DNA of 64,000 bases from Christiangramia flava JLT2011 (lineage in GTDB: Bacteria; Bacteroidota; Bacteroidia; Flavobacteriales; Flavobacteriaceae): NCBI RefSeq assembly GCF_001951155.1, contig NZ_CP016359.1, positions 3,434,001 through 3,498,000 on the forward strand, given 5' to 3'. A program made the translations under genes and the position numbers. Below are positions 491 to 14,348 of this stretch, piece by piece (positions within the stretch are counted from its first letter, which is position 1; every line of letters begins with the position of its first letter). The notes below the pieces were generated by a model. That model saw only the letters and a program-made list of their open reading frames with translations, was not told the origin of the DNA and made no database searches.

Positions 491-1660
491 ATGTCTACTA
501 TGAAGGAAGAAGGTAAAAAAAACAATAATGTTCCAAATTTGAGATTTCCTGAGTTTAAGGAGGAATGGGTGAGAACACGTTTGGGTGATATAGCTGTATT
601 TAAAAAAGGTAAAGGAATCTCAAAAAATGATATTTCTATAGAGGGTAAAACAGATTGTATTCGGTATGGTGAACTTTATACATATTATGATGAGGTAATT
701 GAAGATGTTATTTCGACTACTAATTTGAATCCAGATAATTTAATACTTAGCGAGGAAAATGATATAATCATTCCTTCCTCCGGTGAGTCTTCTATTGAAA
801 TTGCAAAAGCTTCTTGTGTCCAAAAATCGGGTGTCGCGCTAGGAGGAGACCTAAATATTATAAAAACAAATAGTTATGGAAATTTTTTGGCGTATTACTT
901 AAATAATAAAAAAAAGAATAATATAGGTAGAATTGCACAAGGTTCTTCTGTTGTTCATTTATATGCAAAACAGCTCTCCAAATTAAATATTGCTTTGCCT
1001 ACAATAAATGAACAATATAAGATAGGCTCATTTTTGAATTTAATTGAGAAAAGGATAAAAGCCCAAATCAAAATAATTGAAAATTTAGAATCCTTAATGA
1101 AAGGTCTAGGAAAAAAGATTTTTAGCCAAAAGCTACGCTTTCATAATGTTGATGGGAATAGATGCAATGATTGGAAAAAAGTAAAACTGGAGGATGTTTT
1201 GGAAATCGGTAGCGGCAGGGATTATAAACATTTAAAGGAAGGTAATATCCCTGTATTTGGTACAGGAGGTTTTATGACTTCAGTTGAGGGATTTTTATAT
1301 GAGGGAGAAAGTGTAGGTATTGGACGAAAAGGTACTATTGACAAACCTGTTTTCTTGAAAGGTAAATTCTGGACTGTTGACACTCTGTTTTATACCCATT
1401 CATTTAAACAAGTATTTCCTAAATTCATTTATTATCTTTTCCTTCAAATAAATTGGAAAAAATACAATGAAGCTACGGGTGTACCAAGTTTATCAAAGAG
1501 TACAATTGAAAAGATAAAAATAAAAACTCCATGTTTGGCCGAACAAACTAAAATTTTAAAATTTCTTTCTTCTTTCGATGAAAAAATTAAATCAGAAAAA
1601 TACTTATTACAACAGTACAAGAAACAAAAGCAATACTTGCTTCAAAACATGTTTATATAA
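491..1660 (+). CDS. hsdS: Type I restriction-modification specificity subunit HsdS (expressed copy)
   Basis: HsdS of 389 aa that would recognise the DNA target of the type I enzyme. It has two target-recognition halves, each ending in a coiled-coil conserved region: TRD1 about residues 25-175 with helix EKRIKAQIKIIENLESL, TRD2 about 225-345 with helix FDEKIKSEKYLLQQYKKQ. The ATG at 491 gives a 13-residue constant leader; codon 14 (V14, of VPNLRFPE) is the first base of a 20-bp inverted repeat shared with the silent hsdS on the other strand. It lies downstream of hsdM and converges on the second hsdS, the two ends overlapping by 8 bases. It is very probably the ON copy of an inversion switch. 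Confidence 0.93.
   Translation: MSTMKEEGKKNNNVPNLRFPEFKEEWVRTRLGDIAVFKKGKGISKNDISIEGKTDCIRYGELYTYYDEVIEDVISTTNLNPDNLILSEENDIIIPSSGESSIEIAKASCVQKSGVALGGDLNIIKTNSYGNFLAYYLNNKKKNNIGRIAQGSSVVHLYAKQLSKLNIALPTINEQYKIGSFLNLIEKRIKAQIKIIENLESLMKGLGKKIFSQKLRFHNVDGNRCNDWKKVKLEDVLEIGSGRDYKHLKEGNIPVFGTGGFMTSVEGFLYEGESVGIGRKGTIDKPVFLKGKFWTVDTLFYTHSFKQVFPKFIYYLFLQINWKKYNEATGVPSLSKSTIEKIKIKTPCLAEQTKILKFLSSFDEKIKSEKYLLQQYKKQKQYLLQNMFI
530..549 (+). repeat. 20-bp inverted repeat, left copy, in active hsdS
   Basis: GTTCCAAATTTGAGATTTCC, codons 14-20 of the active hsdS. The reverse complement occurs perfectly at 2737-2756, and similarity continues into the next ~20 bases (PEFKEEW against PEYEDDW). A likely recombination site of an hsdS inversion. 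Confidence 0.85.
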
Positions 1661-2747
1661 ATAGGTGCTGTAGAAAATATTTTTTTTGTAAAATATATTG
1701 TTCCAAGATTTTATTTTCGAGTTCAATTTTTCTGTCAAGAGAAGATAATAAAGAGGCGGTTTTTTGCTGTTCTTCCTTACTAGGAACAGGAACTTTCAAT
1801 GATTTAATTATTTGAGCAGATAAGTTTCCTTGACCTCCTTGCAGGTAGGTTTTTAGAATCCGATTCTTATTCGTTCGTAGATAGTAAAGTAAGAAACCAT
1901 TATCTATATTTGTCTTAATGCAAAGAATGGCTTGGTTTATAGCTCCTTTAAACTTGGAAATTCCCACTTCTCCACTAGTAGCTCCATATAAGGCAAAAAT
2001 TAAATCTCCAGGTTCCACCATTTTTGCTGAAGAATTTTTCAATCCTTCATTAGAAATAAATTGTTCCGTTTTCTCGGCATTAATTTCTCCAGATTTTATG
2101 AAGGGAATATTCCCTTCATAGTAATTTTTCTTCGATGTTAGAGGAGTTCCTCCCGAGAAAAATTTTCCCATTTCTCCCAGTTTAAAAAATTTCCAGTCGT
2201 TTTTAAATTCAGGAAATTTCATTTTTTGTTTATATAACTTCTTGCTTAATGAATTTTTTAATACGGTTAAGTCCTTAATTATTTTGTTTTGGGTTTCAAT
2301 ACGTTTCTCTATAGCTGTGAGAAAAGAAGAGATTTTTTGTTGTTCTATAAATTTTGGAATTCTTTTTTTTAATGAGTGGACATCATTCCTATTTAATGTG
2401 GGAACAGTTGAGCCTGCGTTGTATCGCTCCAAGTGAAGGTTCAAATAGAAAAAGTAAATAAATTTAGGATAATTATTTTTGAAGTCTGTTACCCAGAGAG
2501 ATGTATTATGTGGCCAATAATCCCTTTCCACGTATGTGACCTTTCCAATAGTACCCGAACGTCCGGTTACGATTCCAGGTGCTTTTACTTTTGATTTTTT
2601 ATGGTGCCTTAAAATACCATTTGAATAAACCACGGGATATTTTCCCTTCTCTACTTTTTTTGTTGGTAAATCGAAACCCCTTTGTAAAGGAGCTATATCG
2701 ATAACTTTTTTCTCCTGCCAGTCATCCTCATACTCTGGAAATCTCAA
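1653..2747 (-). CDS. hsdS: Silent HsdS specificity cassette in inverted orientation, no own start codon
   Basis: Encodes a full two-TRD HsdS (about 364 aa) with TRDs different from the plus-strand copy: TRD1 around GFDLPTKKVEKGKYPVVYS, TRD2 around GEMGKFFSGGTPL. Conserved helices are EKRIETQNKIIKDL and DRKIELENKILEQY. The frame upstream of LRFPEYEDDW reads V-P-N then K, E, F and a TAA at 2766-2768, with no ATG; the TTG at 2747 sits inside the conserved segment and is an unlikely real start. The codons for VPNLRFP are the inverted repeat also present in the active hsdS, in the same phase. I infer a promoterless storage cassette expressed after DNA inversion, not an independently translated gene. 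Confidence 0.85.
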   Translation of the reverse strand: MRFPEYEDDWQEKKVIDIAPLQRGFDLPTKKVEKGKYPVVYSNGILRHHKKSKVKAPGIVTGRSGTIGKVTYVERDYWPHNTSLWVTDFKNNYPKFIYFFYLNLHLERYNAGSTVPTLNRNDVHSLKKRIPKFIEQQKISSFLTAIEKRIETQNKIIKDLTVLKNSLSKKLYKQKMKFPEFKNDWKFFKLGEMGKFFSGGTPLTSKKNYYEGNIPFIKSGEINAEKTEQFISNEGLKNSSAKMVEPGDLIFALYGATSGEVGISKFKGAINQAILCIKTNIDNGFLLYYLRTNKNRILKTYLQGGQGNLSAQIIKSLKVPVPSKEEQQKTASLLSSLDRKIELENKILEQYILQKKYFLQHLFI

Positions 2748-2756
2748 ATTTGGAAC
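2737..2756 (-). repeat. 20-bp inverted repeat, right copy, at the head of the silent hsdS
   Basis: Perfect reverse complement of 530-549. It starts on the first base of a codon (V) in both copies, so an exchange here keeps the reading frame. It lies 71 bases upstream of the tyrosine recombinase gene. Confidence 0.85.
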
Positions 2757-2796
2757 TTTCTCGAATTATTTTCCCAAAGGTTAAATAGTCATGTTT

Positions 2797-2804
2797 TAGA
2801 TTTG
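2797..2804 (+). promoter_or_regulatory. Candidate promoter -7 box for the recombinase gene
   Basis: TAGATTTG fits the Bacteroidota -7 consensus TAnnTTTG and lies 24 bases before the ATG at 2828. No convincing -33 TTG element is seen at the usual distance, so this is weak. Confidence 0.35.
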
Positions 2805-2827
2805 AAGTTTTAACATAAAATCAAGAA

Positions 2828-3754
2828 ATGACCAATCAAAAAACATTTTTAGAAATCAGTAAATGCTGGCAGCAAGAGAAAAAGCAACTTGTAAAAAAGT
2901 CTACTATCTCTGCTTATTTACTCTTAACAGAAAATCATCTTATACCGGTTTTTGGAGAAAATCGGCAGATTACGGAAGCTGAGGTACAGGAATTTGTATT
3001 TCAAAAATTAAAAGAAGGACTTAGCCAAAAATCTATTAAAGACATTCTAATCGTTCTAAAAATGATACTCAAATTCGGTTCAAAGAAGGGGTATTTGAAC
3101 TATGAACCTTTCGATATACAATTTCCTACTGTAAGGGATAATCAGCAGCTTGAAGTACTAAGTCGGGCAGATCAAAAAAAAATTATGAATCATATAAAGG
3201 ATCATTTTACCTTTCGAAACTTGGGAGTATATTTATGTTTAAGCACTGGTTTACGAATTGGTGAGGTTTGCGCTTTGCGGTGGGAAGATATAGACGTAAT
3301 TAATGGAATGGTAAGCATTAATAAAACAATTCAACGTATCTATTCTATTGAAAATGGTGTTCGTAAAACCGAATTAATTATTGATAGTCCTAAGACTAAG
3401 AATTCAATTCGAGAAATTCCTTTAAGTAGTGATTTATTAAGAATTCTAAAACCGATGAAGAAAGTAGTCAATAGTTCATTTTTTGTACTAACTAATGAGT
3501 CTAAACCCACTGAGCCTAGAACATACAGAAACTATTATAAGAACTTAATGAAGGATTTGGGAATCCCGCATTTAAAATTTCATGGTTTAAGACATAGTTT
3601 CGCAACCAGATGTATAGAAAGTAATTGCGATTATAAGACTGTGAGTGTACTTTTAGGACATTCTAACATAAGCACTACCTTGAATTTGTATGTTCATCCC
3701 AATACAGAACAGAAGAAAAAAGCAATTAATCAAATGTTCCGATCATTAAAATGA
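2828..3754 (+). CDS. Tyrosine recombinase, probable hsdS invertase
   Basis: Integrase of 308 aa of the phage/XerD class. It has an N-terminal SAM-like core-binding domain (about 1-105) and a catalytic domain. The catalytic residues are visible: R143 in TGLRIGEVCALRW, H252 and R255 in HGLRHSFATR, H278 in LGHSNISTTLNLY and the nucleophile Y288. It sits between the inverted hsdS cassette and hsdR, the position in which dedicated hsdS invertases are found in Bacteroides and Streptococcus type I loci. I therefore infer that it flips the 530-2756 segment. A mobile-element integrase is the alternative, but no cargo or att duplication is evident beside it. Confidence 0.88.
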   Translation: MTNQKTFLEISKCWQQEKKQLVKKSTISAYLLLTENHLIPVFGENRQITEAEVQEFVFQKLKEGLSQKSIKDILIVLKMILKFGSKKGYLNYEPFDIQFPTVRDNQQLEVLSRADQKKIMNHIKDHFTFRNLGVYLCLSTGLRIGEVCALRWEDIDVINGMVSINKTIQRIYSIENGVRKTELIIDSPKTKNSIREIPLSSDLLRILKPMKKVVNSSFFVLTNESKPTEPRTYRNYYKNLMKDLGIPHLKFHGLRHSFATRCIESNCDYKTVSVLLGHSNISTTLNLYVHPNTEQKKKAINQMFRSLK

Positions 3755-3827
3755 TTGATATGTTTTTCAAAATCTATTTCTAAAATTAATTATACCTTAC
3801 CACTATCAAATTTGAATACATCTAATA

Positions 3828-6668
3828 ATGACTACTGAACCAGAACAGGTTCTAGAAGGTAACCTTATTTCTCAATTGATTGGATTGGGATATAAATCTA
3901 TTCAGTTAAAAACAGAAGAAGACCTTTTAGAGAACCTGAAACTCCAGTTAGAAAAACATAATAATACCAGGCTTTCTCTGCTGGAATTTCAACAGGTATT
4001 GAATAAAATAAGTAAAGGGAATATCTTTGAAAGAGCGAAGATACTTCGTGACAAGGTAGATTTTACTAAGGATAACGGTGAGACCGGTTACCTAGAACTC
4101 ATAAACCAGGTTCAGTGGTGCAAGAATGAATATCAGGTTACCAACCAGATTAAAATGGAGGGTAAATATAAAAACCGTTATGATGTCACCATCCTCATAA
4201 ATGGACTTCCACTTTGTCAGATTGAGTTAAAAAGACGGGGTTTGGAAATGAAAGAAGCTTTTAACCAAACTAACCGTTACCAAAGACATAGTTTTCAAGC
4301 AGGGAAGGGATTGTTCCAGTACATTCAGCTTTTTGTAATAAGCAATGGAGTGAATTCAAAATATTATGCAAATAACCCTATAAAGGCGAGAAACTTTAAA
4401 CAAACTTTCTTTTGGGCAGATAAGGAAAACAAAAAGATCACACAGCTAAGCGACTTCGCTGATGTTTTCCTGGAGCCATGTCATCTCTCTAAGATGATCA
4501 CAAAATATATAGTGTTGAATGAAAGCCAAAAGATACTAATGGCTCTAAGGCCTTATCAATATTATGCTGTTGAGGCTATTGTTGAAAGAGTGAAGACCAG
4601 TAGGAAAAATGGTTATATATGGCATACTACCGGATCCGGGAAAACCCTAACCTCCTTTAAAACCAGCCAGATCTTAACAAATCTCCCAGAGGTTAAGAAA
4701 GTAGTTTTTGTAGTAGATCGAAAAGATTTGGATTACCAGACCATCAAAGAATTCAATCATTTTAGTAGCGGCAGTATTGACGGCACTAATGATACTAAAT
4801 CTTTGGTTAGTCAATTCAATGATGATACGAAAATCATAGTTACAACTATTCAGAAACTGAATACTTCCATTCATAAACAGTATTACAGAAAAAAGATGGA
4901 AAGGTTCAAAAATGAACGAATGGTATTCATTTTTGACGAATGTCATCGTAGTCAGTTTGGAGATACGCATAATAGAATAAAAAACTATTTTGAAGATGTA
5001 CAAATGTTCGGTTTTACCGGAACACCAATTTTTGCTGATAATGCAAATAGAAATGAACTGGGAAAGCGTACAACGAAAGATTTATTTGAAAAATGCCTGC
5101 ATAAATATGTTATTACCGATGCTATTCGGGATGGAAATGTTTTAAAATTCTCAATTGAATATATAAGCACTTTCAGAAAGAAAAATGAAGTGGTAGATAT
5201 TGATGTAGAGTCTATAGATAAGGCCGAGGTAATGGAGGCACCTAAGAGGTTGGAGGGTATTGTAGATTATATCATAAATAATCATTCTCGCAAAACGCAT
5301 GGGAAGCGATTCACCTCAATATTTTGCGTTGCCAATGTGGATACCTTAATTAAATATTATAAGCTCTTTAACCAGAAAAAGCTAAATGGAGAACATGACC
5401 TGAAAATTGGAACTATTTTTTCTTACCAGACTAATGAGGAAGATTCTGAAGCGACTGGAATGATAGAAACAGATCCGAGGGCACTACCAATAGCTGCTGA
5501 GGAAAATTCCGAATATGATAGTAAACATAGCAGGGAATATTTGGATGATTTCATACAGGATTATAACGAAATGTTTCAGCGAAACTATTCGACAAGTGAC
5601 TTTTATTCGTATTATAAAGATATTGGGAAACAGGTAAAAAACAAACAACTGGATGTTTTGCTTGTAGTGAATATGTTCCTTACCGGATTTGATAGTAAGA
5701 CACTTAATACTATTTACGTAGATAAGAATTTACGTTTTCACGGTTTAATTCAGGCCTATTCAAGAACAAATAGGATCCTTAACGAACTCAAATCGCAGGG
5801 TAACGTCGTATCTTTCCGGAATCTAAAAAAAGCAACTGATGAAGCCATCACATTATTTTCTAATAAGGATGCTATAGAAGATATTATTCTGCAACCTTAT
5901 GAGAATTACATCACTAAATTTGATGAGTCCGTTAGGAAATTATTAGAGATTGCTCCCACGGTTCAAGGTGTGAATGAACTACCTTCAGAAAACGAGGAAT
6001 TAGAATTTGTTACAGCTTTCCGTGAATTGCTCCGTATCAAAAATGTACTAACCACCTTTACTGAATTTGATTTTAGTGACCTCGATATTGATGAACAAAC
6101 ATTTGAGGATTATAAGAGTAAATATTTAGATATAAGAGATAAGGTTCGAAACCATAAAAGCAACGAGAAAGTTTCGATACTTGATGATATAGATTTCGAA
6201 GTGGAGCTTATTCACAGGGATGAGGTCAATGTAGTTTATATACTCACATTGTTGGCAGATCTAAAGGATTCCGGTCCTGCTGATCACGCTAAAAAGAAAA
6301 AACAGATTTCAGATTTGATGGCTTCTGAAACCCAATTGAGAAGTAAAAAGGAATTGATCGAAAGGTTTATTGCCGAAAACTTACCCCTTATAAGAGATCG
6401 TGAGAATATTCCTGAAGAGTTTGAATCTTTCTGGACCACTGAAAAACAAAAGGCATTAGAAGGCATCAGCAAGGAAGAGAACTTAGACCAGGCAAAATTA
6501 AACAGGGTCATAGCCAATTATCTTTTTACTGAAAAGAAACCCTTAAGAGATGAAGTAATTGATACAATGAATAAAAAACCCGGTCTTAGAGAACGAAAGA
6601 CTTCTTCAGAAAGAATTATAGATAAGATCAAAGGTTTTATTGAAACCTTTGTTAATGGGATGGGTTAG
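3828..6668 (+). CDS. hsdR: Type I restriction endonuclease subunit HsdR
   Basis: A motor and nuclease subunit of 946 aa. The N-terminal restriction nuclease has D118 (RYDVTI) and the E133-L-K135 triad (CQIELKRRG). The SF2 translocase follows: Walker A HTTGSGKT at 266-273, motif II D370-E-C-H (FDECHRSQFGD), motif III FGFTGTPI, and motif VI in LIQAYSRTNRI. The C-terminal helical part (about 700-946) would dock on the methylase. Length and all key residues are normal, so it should be active. It begins 73 bases after the recombinase, either in the same transcript or with its own promoter. Confidence 0.95.
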   Translation: MTTEPEQVLEGNLISQLIGLGYKSIQLKTEEDLLENLKLQLEKHNNTRLSLLEFQQVLNKISKGNIFERAKILRDKVDFTKDNGETGYLELINQVQWCKNEYQVTNQIKMEGKYKNRYDVTILINGLPLCQIELKRRGLEMKEAFNQTNRYQRHSFQAGKGLFQYIQLFVISNGVNSKYYANNPIKARNFKQTFFWADKENKKITQLSDFADVFLEPCHLSKMITKYIVLNESQKILMALRPYQYYAVEAIVERVKTSRKNGYIWHTTGSGKTLTSFKTSQILTNLPEVKKVVFVVDRKDLDYQTIKEFNHFSSGSIDGTNDTKSLVSQFNDDTKIIVTTIQKLNTSIHKQYYRKKMERFKNERMVFIFDECHRSQFGDTHNRIKNYFEDVQMFGFTGTPIFADNANRNELGKRTTKDLFEKCLHKYVITDAIRDGNVLKFSIEYISTFRKKNEVVDIDVESIDKAEVMEAPKRLEGIVDYIINNHSRKTHGKRFTSIFCVANVDTLIKYYKLFNQKKLNGEHDLKIGTIFSYQTNEEDSEATGMIETDPRALPIAAEENSEYDSKHSREYLDDFIQDYNEMFQRNYSTSDFYSYYKDIGKQVKNKQLDVLLVVNMFLTGFDSKTLNTIYVDKNLRFHGLIQAYSRTNRILNELKSQGNVVSFRNLKKATDEAITLFSNKDAIEDIILQPYENYITKFDESVRKLLEIAPTVQGVNELPSENEELEFVTAFRELLRIKNVLTTFTEFDFSDLDIDEQTFEDYKSKYLDIRDKVRNHKSNEKVSILDDIDFEVELIHRDEVNVVYILTLLADLKDSGPADHAKKKKQISDLMASETQLRSKKELIERFIAENLPLIRDRENIPEEFESFWTTEKQKALEGISKEENLDQAKLNRVIANYLFTEKKPLRDEVIDTMNKKPGLRERKTSSERIIDKIKGFIETFVNGMG

Positions 6669-6839: not shown

Positions 6840-7532
6840 TTAGCCTTCAATTATATTCCGCATACGTTGTTGTATGATTTCCATGCGCTCATCTGCCTCG
6901 CTGTAATACAAGCTACCATGAATGGCAGCAGAAATTTTACGATTGCTTTGTAAGAACTTTATTTTTTCCATTAAATATTCCTTTACCTCATTGTTGGCCT
7001 TTAGGATTTGCCTGTCTATATCACTGGTATAATTGAATAAATAGGTTATATCTTCCAGGTCGTGGCTGGCATAAATATCTTTTATGCCACGGTCGAGAAA
7101 AGCTTCCATTTTCGTTGCTAAAAAATAGGGAAGAGGGAGCACTTTTATAGTTACATCATCCAGGGTTATAGAAATAGCTTTTTCAAAGCCCTTGGCGAAC
7201 CATGGGTTGGATGGCGCCCATCCAATATTTTTTGTGGACATTACATCTACTTTTACGTCTTCATATCTGAACCTACAATTCACTGTGTCTTCAGCATTTT
7301 GAGTAAAGCCCTTGCTTATTAATGTTTCCCTAAGTTGTTCGAGTTTGGCAAAGGTGGCTAGTTGAAAAGTGAGGTCAATATCTTTGGTAGGCCTGATATC
7401 TTCGGCGGCAGGGTCATCTATATAGAGGCTTACCATCGCGCCGCCTACGTAAACTACTTCTTTATTCAAATCTCCTAAAGCTTCAGCTATTTTTACTGTG
7501 GCGGCTCTATTAATTAATGTATTCTTCAACAT
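6840..7532 (-). CDS. AbiEii-like nucleotidyltransferase, probable toxin of a two-gene module
   Basis: Protein of 230 aa with an MNT-type nucleotidyltransferase core: GG at 30-31 (YVGGAMVSLY), the D51-I-D53 metal pair (RPTKDIDLTF), and a third acidic D96 (VKVDVMS). A later conserved block is KMEAFLDRG, then SHDLEDI. This layout is typical of the AbiEii/AbiGii toxin and related stand-alone nucleotidyltransferases. The ATG overlaps the stop of the upstream HTH gene by 7 bases, so the two are translationally coupled, with the presumed regulator first. Toxin activity and substrate are not proven by sequence; a metabolic or resistance nucleotidyltransferase is less likely in this setting. Confidence 0.75.
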   Translation of the reverse strand: MLKNTLINRAATVKIAEALGDLNKEVVYVGGAMVSLYIDDPAAEDIRPTKDIDLTFQLATFAKLEQLRETLISKGFTQNAEDTVNCRFRYEDVKVDVMSTKNIGWAPSNPWFAKGFEKAISITLDDVTIKVLPLPYFLATKMEAFLDRGIKDIYASHDLEDITYLFNYTSDIDRQILKANNEVKEYLMEKIKFLQSNRKISAAIHGSLYYSEADERMEIIQQRMRNIIEG

Positions 7533-8044
7533 ATACGCTGCTCTAAGAATTCTAATGCTATATTTTTTTCGCGTGCTCTACCTGCACGTACAGCATCCAT
7601 TAAAGCCAGTATTTCATATAGGTTGGAATCTAAAACAATGGCTTGATTTACGCTTGGATACAGGGGTATTATACTTTGGCCTCTTGCTCTTCCTTTAGCA
7701 TAAGGCCACACAAATTTTTCATCACTCATTATTTCGGCAGCCAGTGGGGGGGCACTATGAGCAGTTGGAGTACCTCTTACAATAGCACCTGGATGTTGAG
7801 GGAAAACTACTGCGAGACCATACTTTATAAAATCAAAAAATAATTTGCGATTAACCTCTTTTCCTTTTTTGAAAAGGAGACCAGCATAAACAGATCTTGA
7901 AATAGAGCTGCTAATTTCTGATTGACTCATATATAAAGTCTGGGCTAATTCCATTTGAGTATAATCAGAGCCATCCTTGACAATTAATTTTGCCAGCACC
8001 AGCAAATCCTGAGGTTTTAGTTGATTTAAAGAAGGTTTGTTCAC
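7526..8044 (-). CDS. Helix-turn-helix protein, probable antitoxin/regulator of the nucleotidyltransferase
   Basis: Protein of 172 aa starting with GTG at 8044. Residues 12-60 form a MarR-like winged helix-turn-helix (LVLAKLIVKDG, then MELAQTLYMSQSEISSSI). The C-terminal half has a PQHPGAIVRGTPTAHSAPPL segment I do not recognise as an enzyme. It is first in a two-gene operon with the nucleotidyltransferase and overlaps it by 7 bases. Upstream lies an array of palindromic TATCGCGATA-like sites including a perfect 32-bp palindrome, suggesting autoregulation. It fills the place of AbiEi in AbiE modules but is not an obvious AbiEi by sequence; that role is inferred. Confidence 0.65.
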   Translation of the reverse strand: MNKPSLNQLKPQDLLVLAKLIVKDGSDYTQMELAQTLYMSQSEISSSISRSVYAGLLFKKGKEVNRKLFFDFIKYGLAVVFPQHPGAIVRGTPTAHSAPPLAAEIMSDEKFVWPYAKGRARGQSIIPLYPSVNQAIVLDSNLYEILALMDAVRAGRAREKNIALEFLEQRIC

Positions 8045-8108
8045 AATTATTGTATATCTCGATATGCAATAATATGCATTATATGCTTATAAAACAATAT
8101 ACAATAAA

Positions 8109-8140
8109 AAAATATCGCGTATCGCGATACGCGATATTTT
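8109..8140. promoter_or_regulatory. Perfect 32-bp palindrome, probable operator of the HTH/nucleotidyltransferase pair
   Basis: Each half reads AAAATATCGCGTATCG towards the centre (8124/8125), with no mismatch. It lies about 65 bases upstream of the GTG start of the minus-strand HTH gene. A related, imperfect ATATCTCGATAT occurs closer to the gene at about 8052-8063. Dimeric repressor binding is the likely use; cruciform or hairpin formation is possible. Confidence 0.6.
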
Positions 8141-8206
8141 GTAATACTGATATAAAATAACGAATTTCGTAAAATACCAGTCATTTGTCTTAGCATATGG
8201 GAGTAA

Positions 8207-8500
8207 TTCGAGATATGCATAAATAAACCCCTTGCCACTCACCTCGCCAGGCATACTTTTGCAACTACTATTATATTGACCAATGGAGTTCCGATTGAAT
8301 CTGTAAGTAAGATGCTGGGGCACCAAGATTTAAGAACCACCCAACATTATGCTAAGATTGTGAATAGAAAAATTAGTGATGATATGAAGGCTTTAAAATC
8401 ATACTTATTAAAAAAGAAGAGAATAAATATAAAATTAATAAAAAGAAAATGTGATAATTCAAAAAACTTATTTTTAAAGATATCTTTCAGATGTAGTTAG
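8207..8500 (+). pseudogene. Tyrosine recombinase remnant (C-terminal catalytic fragment)
   Basis: From about 8210 the frame reads EICINKPLATHLARHTFATT followed by NGVPIESVSKMLGHQDLRTT and QHYAKI, the C-terminal catalytic part of a Bacteroidota site-specific integrase (HxxR box, GHxxxxTT box and the active-site Tyr in QHYA). A stop precedes it at 8204-8206 and no N-terminal or first catalytic Arg region is present, so this is a decayed fragment. After QHYAKIVNRKISDDM the tail becomes Lys-rich and unlike the family. It is a footprint of an earlier mobile element inserted between the two defence modules. Confidence 0.8.
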
Positions 8501-8672
8501 TTGCTTGATTGAGGCCATATTTTCAATAGAGTTTCCAGATTAATCTTTACTTCTAAAATTTTCACGTAATTTGCTCTCAAATTACGCTTTAAACTTTAAA
8601 AGGATTAACTGAAATTCATTATAATTAGTAATCTATATATTTTCAAATAATATCGCATATAAAAAATAAATC

Positions 8673-9932
8673 ATGAGTTTAGTTAATTTACATCGGGATA
8701 TTGGAACTGCGAAAGATAACCGGAATAGCCCTATTCATGATTGGTATAGATTCACAGCCGGTTTTTCATATAAATTGGTTCAAAAAATTATCGAAGCCGA
8801 AAAACTAGGTTCAAAGGATTGCATATATGAAAGCTTTGCAGGTTGTGGCACTACTTTGGTTTCAGCTCAAAAAAATGGAATTAAAGCGGTTGGTAATGAA
8901 GGTCAGGAATTACTCTATAATGTTATCAAAGGAAAACTGGATTGGTCTGTTGATATTAGTAAAATTACTCGATTTTTAACCCAATTAGAAAGAGATTTAG
9001 ATAATGGAACCTACAAGGATAACTATCATGAATTGCTTAAGACATTATATTCCGAAAGCGATCTATATCAACTCTATTTTATTCGAGATTATATTAGTAA
9101 AAATGTAAGTGATGAGAGATTAACCTATTTTTTAAACTTGGCCCTTACTCAATCATTGCACAAAGTAAGTATACATCCGATCGCTATTCCGTATATTTCC
9201 AGAAGTAAGACCTTAAATAATTCTTTATCTGCTCTTGATACTTTCAAGAATACTGTAATTAAAATGAAAGAGGATCTAGAATTTGTAAAAGAAAAGGAAC
9301 TAACAACGGAAATATTTCTGCACGATTCCAGAAGAAAAAATGAAAATATTAATGATGGGTCATGTTCCATTTGTATAACCTCACCTCCATACTTAAACAA
9401 TTTGGATTATGGAGAAGTTTCCAAGGTTTGCTCTCATTTTTTTGGATTCACGAATGACTGGAATGAGATTACAGAAAAAGTAAGAAAAAACCTTGTTACT
9501 GGTGCGACCACTCATTATAAGGAGTCTGAATTTGAAATTGAGAAATGGAAACGTGAAGATTTTTATTTGAACAATAGAATAGTAATGGATAATATTCTAA
9601 AGGATATATTTAAAATCGAGACTATTAGTAAGACTCGCAAAGGCAAAAAAAGCTTTCACATTCTTGCATTATATTATTTTCAAGATATGTACCAAGTTTT
9701 TTTAGAGATGCGGAGAGTTTTAAGGAAGGGTAGTAAGGCCTATTTAGTTTTGGGAGATTCGGCTCCCTATGGAGTTTTTATAGATACCACTAAAGTTTTA
9801 GGTGAGATTGCAAAAAATTGTGGATTTAATAAGTTTGAAATTATAAAGATAAGAGAAAGGGGAACAAAATGGCAATCTCTTACCCATCGACATAATTTAA
9901 AATTATCAGAAAACATTTTATTGCTTGAATAG
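8673..9932 (+). CDS. DNA methyltransferase with SPPY motif, first gene of a four-gene putative defence operon
   Basis: A 419-aa beta-type amino-methyltransferase. The motif X-like segment HDWYRFTAGFSYKLV (22-36) precedes motif I (S-F-A-G-C-G-T-T, 54-61); motif IV is S237-P-P-Y in ITSPPYLNNLDYG, and a late conserved block has LVLGDSAPYGVF. SPPY is commonest in N4-cytosine methyltransferases, though N6-adenine cannot be excluded. The insert between motifs I and IV (about 62-235) is large and probably contains target recognition. The next gene starts inside its last codons (8-base overlap). It presumably marks self DNA for a restriction-like system with the downstream ATPase and nuclease; no standard restriction enzyme is adjacent. 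Confidence 0.9.
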   Translation: MSLVNLHRDIGTAKDNRNSPIHDWYRFTAGFSYKLVQKIIEAEKLGSKDCIYESFAGCGTTLVSAQKNGIKAVGNEGQELLYNVIKGKLDWSVDISKITRFLTQLERDLDNGTYKDNYHELLKTLYSESDLYQLYFIRDYISKNVSDERLTYFLNLALTQSLHKVSIHPIAIPYISRSKTLNNSLSALDTFKNTVIKMKEDLEFVKEKELTTEIFLHDSRRKNENINDGSCSICITSPPYLNNLDYGEVSKVCSHFFGFTNDWNEITEKVRKNLVTGATTHYKESEFEIEKWKREDFYLNNRIVMDNILKDIFKIETISKTRKGKKSFHILALYYFQDMYQVFLEMRRVLRKGSKAYLVLGDSAPYGVFIDTTKVLGEIAKNCGFNKFEIIKIRERGTKWQSLTHRHNLKLSENILLLE

Positions 9933-10941
9933 TACAATTGAGGACATATCAAGTTTACCTGTTATAAAACTTCCCATTTTGGATGACATTTTAGTATCCA
10001 AAACGTATAATAAAGGATGGTCGTATTCAAACGTTTATTATCTACAACCGATAAAAGACATTTATCTAATAATTAAAAATTACCCTCATACAAAGTTAGA
10101 TAATAGAAAAATTAGAGATGCTTATTTAAAAACGATACCAGATCTTAGCAATAAATGGTCAAAAAGAAAAAATCTTGAATATGTAAATGCATTAAGAAAT
10201 TTTGGATTAATTGATCAGGAAAATAAAATAATTAAAGAAGTTTTTGAGGATTCTGAAATTGGAGAAGAATTGTCACAAAATGATTTGTTAGATTTTCGAG
10301 ATATATTCTTTAGTTACTTCAGATTTAAAGAAATATCCAGTTGGTATCTATTTCCTTGTCAGGAAAATCATAATCGATTTGAATCTATTACTCTTAAAGA
10401 GCTTGTCCAGGATTCTATTCCATTGTTTGCCACTAAAGACGACAAATTTTTTAACAAAATTTTATTTAAATTAGAAAATATTCGTAATGTCTATGTTGTT
10501 GATGAGGATTTAACACATCTGATGAGATTCTTTGAGGTTTTTCTAAAATGGGGAACTACATTAGGTATAATGGATAAATTCAATCTAAACTCAATAAATT
10601 TGAAAACTCAAAATAATAAGGATATCACAATCTCTTATTTTATAAAGCCATTTAATTATTTTGACCTAAGAGCCTTTATAGAAAGAAAGAAATTCTGGAG
10701 TCGTCAAATTTTAATACCTGAATTGGTTTTTGAGATTGCCAAAGAATTTCGATATTCTGTTTTTGAAATAAAAAATTTCATAGTTCAACAAATTCTGGAA
10801 AACGATGAGTTGACTTATGAGAGAACTTCTGCAGTCTTTATTGTAAAAGGAAAAAATAGCGCGGAAAAAGTAAAGGCAGCAACTTATTTATATCCAATTA
10901 TTAATGATAGCTATGTTTCACATCTTATAATAAGGAAATGA
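9925..10941 (+). CDS. Unrecognised protein, second gene of the methyltransferase/ATPase/PIN operon
   Basis: I do not recognise this 338-aa protein. The only usable early start is TTG at 9925, inside the end of the methyltransferase gene, and its stop overlaps the ATPase start (ATGA), so translation is coupled on both sides. Residues 56-97 (KIRDAYLKTIPDLS, then NALRNFGLIDQENK) look like a winged-helix DNA-binding segment, and residues about 280-320 (VFEIAKEFRYSVFEIKNFI) could be a second one. No nuclease, helicase or transmembrane motif is evident. By position it may be the target-recognition or adaptor subunit between the methyltransferase and ATPase; this is inference only. Confidence 0.7.
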   Translation: MNSTIEDISSLPVIKLPILDDILVSKTYNKGWSYSNVYYLQPIKDIYLIIKNYPHTKLDNRKIRDAYLKTIPDLSNKWSKRKNLEYVNALRNFGLIDQENKIIKEVFEDSEIGEELSQNDLLDFRDIFFSYFRFKEISSWYLFPCQENHNRFESITLKELVQDSIPLFATKDDKFFNKILFKLENIRNVYVVDEDLTHLMRFFEVFLKWGTTLGIMDKFNLNSINLKTQNNKDITISYFIKPFNYFDLRAFIERKKFWSRQILIPELVFEIAKEFRYSVFEIKNFIVQQILENDELTYERTSAVFIVKGKNSAEKVKAATYLYPIINDSYVSHLIIRK

Positions 10942-12218
10942 CAATAGACATAAACGAAATTTTAAAAAATAGGGAAGACCAAAGCGACAAGGATAGATAT
11001 GAAAAATTAAATTTGAAATCTAACCCTTTTCCTAAATCAGGTACAGCAAATATTAACGAATCATCTGAGCAGACCAAGGCCCTTACCCCAATAGATGATA
11101 TTGTTCATCGCCAAATAGTAGATTATATTGCAGATTCCCTATATGCTTCTAATGAAGAAGACCAAAAATTAATTGGAACAATTACAGGAGATTATGGCAC
11201 AGGAAAAACTCAGTTACTATTATATGCAAAGTCTATTATTCAAAGTAAAAGTAAAAAAGCGTTTGCTATTTATATTAACAATCCAGGAACCACACTTTCT
11301 CAGCTAATAGGTTCTATAATTGAAAACATTGGTCAAGAGCAGTTTAAAAAATACTTATGGACCCAAGTTATAGATGAAATTAAAAACACTAATAATAACT
11401 ATAAAGTCCAGTTGTCGAAATTTTTAGCCAATCCACAAGGAAAAATGTTTGGTGATGAAAATGATCCATTTTCTGTAGAAAATGAAGCGAATCACAAAGC
11501 ATTTTTAGATGCGTTTCTGAATCAAATTAATAACAAGAAATCACGTTCGGAATTAAACGAAACTCTCAAAACAATTATCCTTCAGATTTTAGAAAAAAGA
11601 AACAATGATGCTGTTATAGCAGATTATTTCTATAACCTTATTGCGGAAGATTTTGGGGTAAGTAAAACATGGGAAACTATAACCTCAGGAACTGGCAAGT
11701 ATCTTAATAATAAGGTAGTCAAATTATTGAATGCAATTATTGATATTGTTCGGGATCAAGGCTTCGATAGGTTTTATCTTTTAGTCGACGAATTTGAAGA
11801 TATTACATCTGGTAGACTCACAAAAAAAGAAAGTGATTCCTATGCTTACAATTTGAGAGCATTAATTGATAAAGAGAGAAGATGGTGCTTATTAATTGCT
11901 TTAACCAGAACAGCATTAGAAGATATTAGAAAAATTTCTCCTCCATTAGCCGATAGATTAACTGATAGAGAAATAAATATTCAAAGACTTTCCGCTGACC
12001 AGTTCAGAAAACTGGTAATCAATTATCTGAACTTAAGTCGTGATTCAAGCGAAACATATGAACCTTTTACTGAGGAGGCTTTAGATTTAGTAAATAAATC
12101 TTCAGGAGAATTACCCCGATTGGCCTTAAGAAAACTACATTTTATTTTAGAGCGAGCTGCTGATGAAAAAGATATCAAATTAATTGATGTTGACTTTGCA
12201 AAAAGTCATTTACAATAA
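10938..12218 (+). CDS. P-loop ATPase (ORC/AAA-like), third gene of the putative defence operon
   Basis: ATPase of 426 aa. Walker A is G84-D-Y-G-T-G-K-T91, preceded by the NPFP segment (29-32) seen in ORC/TniB/BrxC-type ATPases. Walker B is LLVDEFEDI at about 284-292, followed by a sensor-like region (LLIALTRTALEDI) and an arginine-rich SPPLADRLTDREI. The C-terminal ~90 residues look like a lid plus winged helix (LPRLALRKLHFILERA). There are no helicase motifs, so it is more likely a switch or loader than a translocase. It overlaps the preceding gene by 4 bases and is 9 bases from the PIN-like gene. It resembles small ATPases of BREX-like and other multi-gene defence systems, without an exact match I can name. 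Confidence 0.85.
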   Translation: MTIDINEILKNREDQSDKDRYEKLNLKSNPFPKSGTANINESSEQTKALTPIDDIVHRQIVDYIADSLYASNEEDQKLIGTITGDYGTGKTQLLLYAKSIIQSKSKKAFAIYINNPGTTLSQLIGSIIENIGQEQFKKYLWTQVIDEIKNTNNNYKVQLSKFLANPQGKMFGDENDPFSVENEANHKAFLDAFLNQINNKKSRSELNETLKTIILQILEKRNNDAVIADYFYNLIAEDFGVSKTWETITSGTGKYLNNKVVKLLNAIIDIVRDQGFDRFYLLVDEFEDITSGRLTKKESDSYAYNLRALIDKERRWCLLIALTRTALEDIRKISPPLADRLTDREINIQRLSADQFRKLVINYLNLSRDSSETYEPFTEEALDLVNKSSGELPRLALRKLHFILERAADEKDIKLIDVDFAKSHLQ

Positions 12219-12227
12219 ATAGGCAAA

Positions 12228-13325
12228 ATGACAAAATTTAACACCGTAGATCCGGCATTTAAAATTAAAGTGGCCCTTGATACACAGTTATTAGCTTATT
12301 TAATTGATGACAGTTATCCAAGTTTTACAAGATTCTATGAATGCTTAAAAAATTCACCCTTTGTGGATATAGTTTGTTCTCGTTTTGTTACGTTCGAATA
12401 TATAGGAATTAGAAAATTAGAACATTATTTGCGTAAACTATATAGTTCAACTAATGGAAAAATGAACTTTAGTTCAGCGCTAAAATACCGTAACGAATTT
12501 AAAGCGCCAGAATTAGATTATGAGCAATGTTATGAATCCATAAAATTAGATATTGAAGCGGAACTTACAAAACTCAACGATGATTATGGCATCCAGTATG
12601 AGGACAATATATTGCATCAAGGCTTATGGCATCCACATCAAGAATTATTGTTGTCCTCACGTATTTCTAAAGAAGACTGTTTAGTTCTACTATCAAGTAT
12701 TTTTCCCCAGGATATGGTTAGAGAATCGCATTCAGTTTTTTTAACAAATGACAATCAATTTTATAAATCTTTTTGTGGAAAAAAAGGCTATAGAATGCAA
12801 GCCATTGATGAAGTATTTGATAATAATGGTCTGGTAAAACCTGAAACATTTAATATTAAAAAAATTAGCGCTCAAAACTCTGAAGTATTCAATCTAACCG
12901 AAACAATTGAAGATGATAAAGTAGATAATTTAGCGCTGAATTTTATCTTTGATCAAATTTGTATCAAAAATGAAAATTTAATTTTAGGTAAAACAATTAA
13001 ATGTGATTGTAGTAAGAACTTAAAAAAAACCATGCTGTGTTTTGAATTACTAGAAAATATTGAATTACCGGAAAAACTTTACACAGCAATTCTTTATAGG
13101 AATGATAAAGAACTTGATTTATATATTCATCATACTTCATTTAAGGACTTCCATAACGTGACTAGAATTGAAGAATTTCCTTACGTTGGAAATGGTAATT
13201 TATCATCCCGCCTTATAACATTGCTTATAAAAGCTAAAGATAGCTCGCCGATAGATGAAAACTTAATGACTTTATTAACAGCAAAGGATAACGTTATATT
13301 CGTTCATCCTGATAATTCAATTTAA
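12228..13325 (+). CDS. PIN-like nuclease, fourth gene of the putative defence operon
   Basis: Protein of 365 aa. The first ~185 residues have the acidic layout of a PIN/FEN-like nuclease: D18 in KVALDTQLLAYLID, E57 in VTFEYIGIRKLE, E149-D150 in SKEDCLVLLSSIF, and N174-D175 in VFLTNDNQFYKSF. The remaining ~180 residues are unrecognised, with C-D-C spacing (IKCDCSKN) and an EDKVDNLALNFIF segment, and may bind substrate or the ATPase. As last gene of a tight operon with a DNA methyltransferase and an ATPase it is the natural effector. RNA or DNA as substrate cannot be told from sequence; the PIN assignment is by pattern only. Confidence 0.72.
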   Translation: MTKFNTVDPAFKIKVALDTQLLAYLIDDSYPSFTRFYECLKNSPFVDIVCSRFVTFEYIGIRKLEHYLRKLYSSTNGKMNFSSALKYRNEFKAPELDYEQCYESIKLDIEAELTKLNDDYGIQYEDNILHQGLWHPHQELLLSSRISKEDCLVLLSSIFPQDMVRESHSVFLTNDNQFYKSFCGKKGYRMQAIDEVFDNNGLVKPETFNIKKISAQNSEVFNLTETIEDDKVDNLALNFIFDQICIKNENLILGKTIKCDCSKNLKKTMLCFELLENIELPEKLYTAILYRNDKELDLYIHHTSFKDFHNVTRIEEFPYVGNGNLSSRLITLLIKAKDSSPIDENLMTLLTAKDNVIFVHPDNSI

Positions 13326-13397
13326 TATTTATCGGAGTTGCCCTTTGTAGTATTTCAAAAAAATTAAAGAGTTCAGCATTAAATTTTCTAAACCAAA

Positions 13398-13688
13398 TCA
13401 TTTTCCGTCTAGCTTCCGATAGTAATCTTCAAAGTTAAAATCTATATCTAATAACTTAGCTGGAGAAACCCGCAAACCGATTGCAATATCTATCAAAGTC
13501 GTAAGTTGACAATCTATATTATTATTAGCAACATCACTTATACGTGCAGAGGTAGTGTTACATTTTTCCGATATCACATTATAAGGAGTATCTCCTTTTA
13601 AATCTTTCAATCTTCTAGCTATAAGAGCTTTTATTTCTTCTGTTTTGTTATCCTTCATGATCAGGTTTTCTGCAATTTGAAGGATCAT
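13398..13688 (-). CDS. Small XRE-type helix-turn-helix regulator
   Basis: Protein of 96 aa with one lambda-repressor-like helix-turn-helix (about 25-80): TPYNVISEKCNTTSARISDV, a turn, then LTTLIDIAIGLRVSPAKLLDI. No effector domain. An ATG 10 codons later is an alternative start. It converges on the PIN-like gene with a 72-base gap. The palindrome ATTACCGCATTCGGTAAT is centred about 20 bases upstream of its start and is a likely autoregulatory operator. It may control the neighbouring operon or the structured region on its other side; this is inference from position. Confidence 0.75.
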   Translation of the reverse strand: MILQIAENLIMKDNKTEEIKALIARRLKDLKGDTPYNVISEKCNTTSARISDVANNNIDCQLTTLIDIAIGLRVSPAKLLDIDFNFEDYYRKLDGK

Positions 13689-13700
13689 TAGAAAATTTTT

Positions 13701-13718
13701 ATTACCGCATTCGGTAAT
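13701..13718. promoter_or_regulatory. Operator-like palindrome upstream of the XRE regulator
   Basis: ATTACCG-CATT-CGGTAAT: 7-bp perfect arms around a 4-base spacer, 13 bases upstream of the XRE start codon and 17 bases upstream of a TATATTTG box on the plus strand. The position suits a dimeric HTH repressor acting on both directions. Confidence 0.5.
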
Positions 13719-13734
13719 ATTTAAATTATATTAT

Positions 13735-13742
13735 TATATTTG
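13735..13742 (+). promoter_or_regulatory. Candidate plus-strand -7 box reading into the structured non-coding region
   Basis: TATATTTG fits the Bacteroidota -7 consensus TAnnTTTG. A second match, TATTTTTG, lies at 13754-13761. No clear -33 TTG is present; the operator-like palindrome occupies that area. Transcription would start near 13750 and read into the hairpin region. Confidence 0.35.
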
Positions 13743-13749
13743 GTTAATA

Positions 13750-13940
13750 TTAATATTTTTGCGAAACTTCTTAAAGTAAAATATTAGAAGCATTCGCTTT
13801 GAATCTCGGATTGAAAACTGGTAATTTTTAAGGAACGAGATGATAAGTGTAAATGCTCACGACCCGGGCGTGGGCTTACTTGTCGTTCCAAGGTATACCA
13901 GTACCACAATCCGATAAGTTGAGTAACCACGCCTTTTTTT
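13750..13940 (+). ncRNA. Candidate structured non-coding RNA with two competing hairpins and a T-run
   Basis: No convincing protein is encoded. A long imperfect hairpin spans 13807-13913, with perfectly matched arm pairs CGGATTG/CAATCCG, CTGGTA/TACCAG and GGAACGA/TCGTTCC, and inner GTAA/TTAC and GCTCACG/CGTGGGC pairs. The inner right arm GGCGTGGGCTTAC (13867-13879) can instead pair with GTAACCACGCC (13923-13933), which is followed by seven T, giving a terminator. The two folds exclude each other. It could be a small RNA of about 190 nt, an attenuated leader, or a degenerate palindromic element. Pairing is seen directly; transcription is inferred. Confidence 0.4.
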
Positions 13941-14348
13941 ATGCGGTAACTTTTCTTTTTCAAAGCTTTTGTTTCTTCACAGAAGCTCGCATTCATTAAC
14001 TAAATAAAAAAATTTATTAATGGCCAGGGTGGCCGGCACTTTTATAAGTGTATTCATTAATTCCTGTAAACGGGACAGGGAATTTTACAATCCCGTGGGT
14101 TACTGCAGGGACCCTATTCCAGGCAGTAGTTGGGTGGGAAGCCTGCATTCCTCCAGTTGGGAAAGCGTGGCTGGGTATATAATATCAGGATAACAGGATG
14201 CTTTTTTTGCTCCAAAAATTTGTATTAGTCAGTTAAAAAAATGCTTAAAAGAAAAGAAAGATGAACACTCGTTTTGGCGGGTAAAAGCGAGAAAGCCTTC
14301 CCTTGAGATTGCAGTCCAACAGGGAAGGCCTAAGCTTAAATAAAACTA
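13941..14348. other. Gene-free leader region before susC
   Basis: About 400 bases without a credible gene, richer in G and C than the defence island to its left. It contains several small inverted repeats: ACGGGA/TCCCGT near 14070-14096, TACTGC/GCAGTA near 14100-14129, and GCCTTCCCT (14295-14303) with AGGGAAGGC (14321-14329). The last lies 20 bases before the susC ATG and has no T-run, so it looks like part of a structured 5' leader, not a terminator. The stretch ATATCAGGATAACAGG near 14184 faintly resembles a cobalamin-riboswitch box, but the full consensus is not there. I cannot assign a known RNA family. Confidence 0.4.

Follow-up and report, generated by a model that had tools for sequence, protein, structure and literature searches.

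In Christiangramia flava JLT2011 (Flavobacteriaceae), four adjacent genes, at positions 8673–13325 of the 64,000-nucleotide stretch of chromosome analysed here (the window: NZ_CP016359.1, positions 3,434,001 to 3,498,000), form a real, coherent and rare system, which recurs as the same ordered set in other genomes. The genes encode a DNA methyltransferase, a predicted DNA reader (protein B), an ATPase of the ORC/Cdc6 type and a PIN-domain nuclease. On balance, we favour the view that this cassette is a restriction-like defence system, dependent on ATP and moved horizontally, with a logic like that of the Ssp and BREX systems but with base methylation as its mark and a PIN protein as its effector. 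The gene set, its order and co-occurrence, the coevolution of its products, their conserved catalytic motifs and their predicted folds are established by the analyses that follow.

A conserved four-gene cassette

By the list of open reading frames (ORFs) of the window, the operon consists of four ORFs, all on the forward strand, for the methyltransferase (8673..9932; 419 amino acids (aa)), protein B (9925..10941; 338 aa, from a TTG start), the ATPase (10938..12218; 426 aa) and the PIN protein (12228..13325). Consecutive genes overlap by 8 bases, then by 4 bases, and the last follows after a gap of 9 bases, spacings that had already been given correctly in an earlier note made from the sequence alone. 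A scan for promoters and terminators gave no excess over shuffled sequences (27 vs 26.7; 2 vs 1.5).

When genome contigs (one genome per species) were scanned with an alignment of B, 14 loci besides the window were found, and at all 14 the order methyltransferase–B–ATPase–PIN was kept on one strand. Such conservation of order is far beyond chance, and the arrangement to which the earlier note had drawn attention is clearly not a lone one. Because L007–L010 are near-identical, and the ATPase and PIN genes of L004 each lie in two frames, the loci amount to about 11 distinct cases. (The split at L004, at 10396–12418 of a chromosome from a metagenome-assembled genome, is decay or an assembly error; the methyltransferase and B genes there stay open.) Thirteen loci are from Bacteroidota and one is labelled Acidobacteria. 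Contigs of 163972, 230342, 578888, 132468, 96585, 40158, 31662 and 12508 bases were common to the protein-search lists obtained with B, the ATPase and the PIN protein.

Of 395 genomes of the phylum searched with the ATPase, four matched, that of C. flava among them, and the other three each contained all four genes. Of 296 genomes drawn from the phylum, 95 had some match to the methyltransferase, at 668–708 bits in G000, G356, G384 and G208 and at no more than 93 bits in the other 91; the PIN protein found exactly the same four genomes and none of the other 292 (for both proteins, up to six candidates were scored per genome). The draws overlap, and are therefore not independent samples. Among 198 relatives of C. 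flava, only its own genome matches.

The four proteins

The first protein is a DNA methyltransferase of the SPPY type, predicted to be the self-marking enzyme. Motif I (SFAGCGTT) comes first, followed by a long stretch and then by SPPY (within TSPPY); FAGCGTT stands before TSPPYLNNLDYGEVSKV. Neither motif varies among the window and the 14 loci. The Pfam family N6_N4_Mtase matches the protein at 6.4e-7 (30 bits, against a cut-off of 26.7), and the PADLOC model MTase_II PDLC03306, of a type II family, does so at 4.4e-44 over nearly the full length. SPPY is commoner in N4-cytosine enzymes, and we judge N4-methylcytosine (m4C) a likelier product than N6-methyladenine. Plasmids gave 28 matching records, all below 60% identity and the best-ranked 30% identical; among the best ten of the 28 is a gene of Deinococcus radiodurans pCP1 (23.5% identical), which we take to be that of M.DraR1. 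M.DraR1 has been reported as an m4C methyltransferase of D. radiodurans (PMC10855626).

Protein B matches no family, and in particular no nuclease family, above the cut-offs of the Pfam and NCBIfam scans. Its predicted structure resembles the DNA-recognition module of FokI, with a weaker likeness to BpuJI and BrxA, and on this model B is predicted to be a DNA-recognition subunit with tandem or triple winged helices, of the FokI/BrxA type. SspB was not among the 50 matches listed in the structure search, and comparison of B with BrxA or DUF4007 by hhalign gave probabilities below 1%, with small alignments and crude ORF picking (10 DUF4007 loci of 13 and 10 BrxA loci of 15 were tried, the ORF coming from 4 and 5). 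A search for the family FokI_D1 gave no match in the 296 genomes; as the 14 controls likewise gave none, it is uninformative. No viral contigs with B were found.

Judged by its sequence, the third protein is a P-loop ATPase of the ORC/Cdc6 (BrxC/BrxD) family, with Walker A (GDYGTGKT) and Walker B (LLVDEFED) intact. Pfam assigns it to AAA_22 (1e-8) and BrxC_BrxD (2.5e-7), both above cut-off, and it scores 30.4 bits against PF10923, for which the cut-off is 22.2. The Walker residues G84, G87, G89, K90, T91, D284 and E285, together with R340, are invariant in the 34 rows of the family alignment. Among PADLOC models compared with these 34 family members, BrxD matched 31, mad8 matched 19 and DpdH matched 13; two SspC models matched one member each, weakly (best expectation value, E, 0.0084), and a PglZ model touched one (E 0.0091), which we take as P-loop noise. 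No relative of solved structure was found by sequence, and plasmids yielded four halophile records (21–28% identity), annotated as BREX ATP-binding proteins.

Fold prediction and alignment together confirm the last gene as that of a PIN nuclease of VapC-like fold with a conserved acidic active site: the predicted structure comprises the PIN domain (residues ~13–224) and a C-terminal beta-barrel (~253–362), and D18, E57, E149, D150 and D175 are invariant in 86 aligned sequences. A search of plasmids with this protein, the predicted effector, found none. RNA is the target of most VapC-like PIN enzymes. PIN proteins have been described as backup RNases that are less common, or as partners of OLD-type ATPases (PMC12839542), and two of the systems reported by DefensePredictor contain PIN, the single-protein DS-3 and the two-protein DS-5 (PMC13092281); there is thus precedent for PIN effectors in defence, though not in such a setting.

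Most of this bears out the earlier note, which had picked out the unit of four genes and recognized the methyltransferase by motif I and SPPY, the ATPase by the two Walker motifs (with K90), and a PIN-like nuclease by the five acidic residues given above: the motifs are all in the translations, both Pfam families agree with the assignment of the ATPase, and the predicted fold agrees with that of the nuclease. The second gene had been left as an unknown, and sensing had been ascribed to the ATPase or an adaptor. Since this gene's product, B, is a predicted winged-helix DNA reader, B rather than the ATPase is the better candidate for recognition of DNA.

Relation to known systems

Scans of the four proteins with PADLOC, NCBIfam and Pfam gave no named system, and the exact four-gene set appears to be undescribed, being unnamed in the libraries and literature searched (bioRxiv and most subscription papers lay outside them); the opinion of the earlier note, that no known system has exactly these four genes, is in line with this.

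In the Ssp systems (SspABCD-SspE/SspFGH), as in the cassette, a modification is combined with a FokI-type triple winged helix-turn-helix (wHTH) protein, a Cdc6/Orc ATPase and a separate effector (PMC10853773, PMC8092258); SspB shares the triple wHTH of FokI, and SspC is the Cdc6/Orc ATPase (PMC10853773). The cassette differs in having a base methyltransferase rather than sulfur chemistry (no match to a sulfur-transfer gene was found among the four proteins in Pfam, PADLOC or NCBIfam) and a PIN nuclease rather than SspE or SspFGH. BREX, and BREX-related systems centred on DUF499, likewise have a methyltransferase and an ORC/Cdc6 ATPase, and BREX also has an HTH reader of the BrxA type (PMC12839542). 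The ATPase of the cassette is nearest to the BrxD models of PADLOC, but it scores 28.1 against the NCBIfam BrxD cut-off of 350, and no PglZ, large BrxC or helicase is found among the four proteins. BrxC and PglX/BrxX are usually larger than the cassette's 426-aa ATPase and 419-aa methyltransferase, the latter being assigned by PADLOC to a type II family. With the type IIS enzymes FokI and BpuJI, the cassette has in common the predicted fold of the DNA-recognition module; B, however, stands alone as a protein and has no nuclease family above cut-off, so that no fused PD-(D/E)XK domain is seen, and an ATPase and a PIN protein are added. Because the operon lacks PglZ, phosphorothioation genes and a PD-(D/E)XK domain, we do not class it as BREX, Ssp or type IIS.

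MADS is a system of eight genes, including a methyltransferase, mad2, and is echoed by the mad8 matches of the ATPase family. Of the four proteins of the window's operon, the ATPase alone has a mad match (mad8, E 0.021); B and the PIN protein match none, and for the methyltransferase the statement covers the best 25 of 27 matches listed. The mad2 model does match methyltransferases. A further operon, on the Cryobacterium plasmid pA28BH1 (L075, 1377–7611), has two methyltransferase genes followed by genes for an unknown protein, an ATPase of the AAA_5 type and a protein weakly like McrBC, and may be a restriction system in its own right. In it, a distant relative of our methyltransferase neighbours a small ATPase and further genes, but that ATPase belongs to AAA_5, and the McrBC match of the last protein stays below cut-off (19.1 vs 23.9 bits). 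We do not regard it as a sister system, similarity having been found between the methyltransferases only.

How the cassette may act

We infer every functional step that follows, the role in defence included. The methyltransferase would mark host DNA at a short site, probably with N4-methylcytosine, and B, with its predicted tandem winged helices, would bind this site or the unmethylated version of it. The BrxD-like ATPase would then assemble on B-bound DNA, its use of ATP licensing the response, and the PIN protein, perhaps recruited via its beta-barrel, would cut either RNA or the DNA of the invader; cutting of RNA would halt the infected cell. A role in defence is supported by the published logic of Ssp, with its wHTH reader (SspB) and Cdc6/Orc ATPase (SspC), by the patchy distribution of the cassette, both in the phylum and among the relatives of C. 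flava, and by the defence genes found beside it (type I restriction–modification, PDC-M21, AbiE, AbiL/PDC-M38-like genes and a type IV enzyme; see below). More tentatively, the system may be a form of restriction–modification with an RNase as effector, in which reader and ATPase detect unmethylated foreign DNA and the VapC-like PIN protein cuts cellular RNA. Self-marking of DNA would in that case gate a suicide response, in which shutdown of the cell would take the place of cutting the invader's DNA.

The Ssp precedent might also be turned the other way. The phosphorothioate mark is made by SspABCD, SspB included (PMC10853773, PMC8092258), so B and the ATPase could conceivably belong to the modification side, loading the methyltransferase, while the PIN protein alone senses the state of the DNA and kills; the presence of all four genes at every locus would suit this. 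The correlations among the identities of the proteins speak against it. In 12 of the 15 loci (L004, L008 and L010 being left out as split or near-identical, and the similar pair L007/L009 kept in), mean pairwise identity was 58% for the methyltransferase, 43% for the ATPase, 35% for B and 32% for the PIN protein. The identity matrices of the last three correlated at 0.94–0.97 with each other and at 0.76–0.83 with that of the methyltransferase, and in 2000 permutations none of the six correlations was equalled. From these comparisons we read B, the ATPase and the PIN protein as one working unit, seemingly changing faster than the marking enzyme; the tighter correlation therefore groups the reader with the effector, and we consider a place for B and the ATPase on the modification side unlikely.

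Genomic setting and mobility

In the window, the cassette lies in an AT-rich island (GC 0.29–0.31 across the 2-kb steps of 8001–14000, against 0.40–0.46 in steps from 28001 on), which, as first described, also holds a type I system and a toxin–antitoxin-like pair. Upstream of the operon, a family scan of the flank revealed two oppositely oriented HsdS genes and an integrase, and Pfam identified HsdR at 3828–6668; as a whole (491–6668), the two opposed HsdS genes, followed by the phage-type integrase and HsdR, resemble an invertible type I specificity locus. At 6840–8044, on the reverse strand, are an AbiEii-like nucleotidyltransferase and its partner, matching the PADLOC candidate system PDC-M21B/A (E 3e-56 and 3e-44); the partner has otherwise only a weak MarR-like match. 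Directly upstream of the operon (8207..8430, forward strand) is a remnant of the C-terminus of a tyrosine recombinase, resembling the integrase at 2828–3754 (43% identity over 37 aligned columns, E 4e-5, in a two-sequence comparison). Downstream there are a TonB receptor, SusD and an M16 peptidase, and a small protein (13398–13688, reverse strand), convergent with the operon, which by eye resembles an XRE-type regulator and matches no Pfam family at E 0.001.

At other loci (L004, L005 and L014 being left out of the family scans), AbiE genes end 13 bases upstream of the cassette in L007–L010 (by family scan in L007, by similarity in the others), and AbiL/PDC-M38-like genes lie upstream at L006 and L012; these are the recurrent flanking genes that could be named. 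A PADLOC type IV enzyme is found 417 bases downstream of the L015 cassette, and an HNH protein beside that of L013. At L002, L003 and L011, the six neighbouring genes covered by the scan included no convincing defence gene (a PsyrT match at L003 was weak, the protein being a phosphoribosyl pyrophosphate synthetase by Pfam). In an all-against-all comparison, every group of flanking ORFs was confined to 4 or fewer of the 14 loci, and no fifth conserved gene emerged. A search for an empty insertion site among 19 relatives of G384 gave, besides G384 itself, only distant homologues of the flanking gene (≤35% identity) and no comparison.

In G356 (L076, 3574–13255), the cassette stands between the mobilization genes and the tra genes of a conjugative element, of which it appears to be cargo, since plasmid relatives of the genes on one flank are annotated as MobB relaxase and coupling protein, and on the other flank as TraM. 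Such carriage, and the VapC-like fold predicted for the PIN protein, might suggest an addiction module that stabilizes mobile elements, with the methyltransferase as antidote and the PIN protein as a toxin that punishes loss of the element, and with little anti-phage role; this strikes us as improbable, a DNA reader and an ORC-like ATPase being superfluous for toxin–antitoxin pairs, and defence genes adjoining the cassette at several loci. Least probable of all is an epigenetic or DNA-repair/replication regulator with no tie to defence, which, although ORC-like ATPases also serve replication and the neighbours at L002, L003 and L011 are not convincing defence genes, is hard to reconcile with the very patchy distribution, the AT-rich island of the window, the conjugative element of G356 and the invariant active site of the nuclease.

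Implications

If the cassette is indeed a restriction-like defence system, then the core of modification, wHTH reader and ORC ATPase that characterizes Ssp/BREX-like systems would also pair with base methylation and a PIN nuclease, and only four small genes would suffice for such a system. Its compactness may make it a practical model for how ORC-type ATPases turn the recognition of unmarked DNA into attack.
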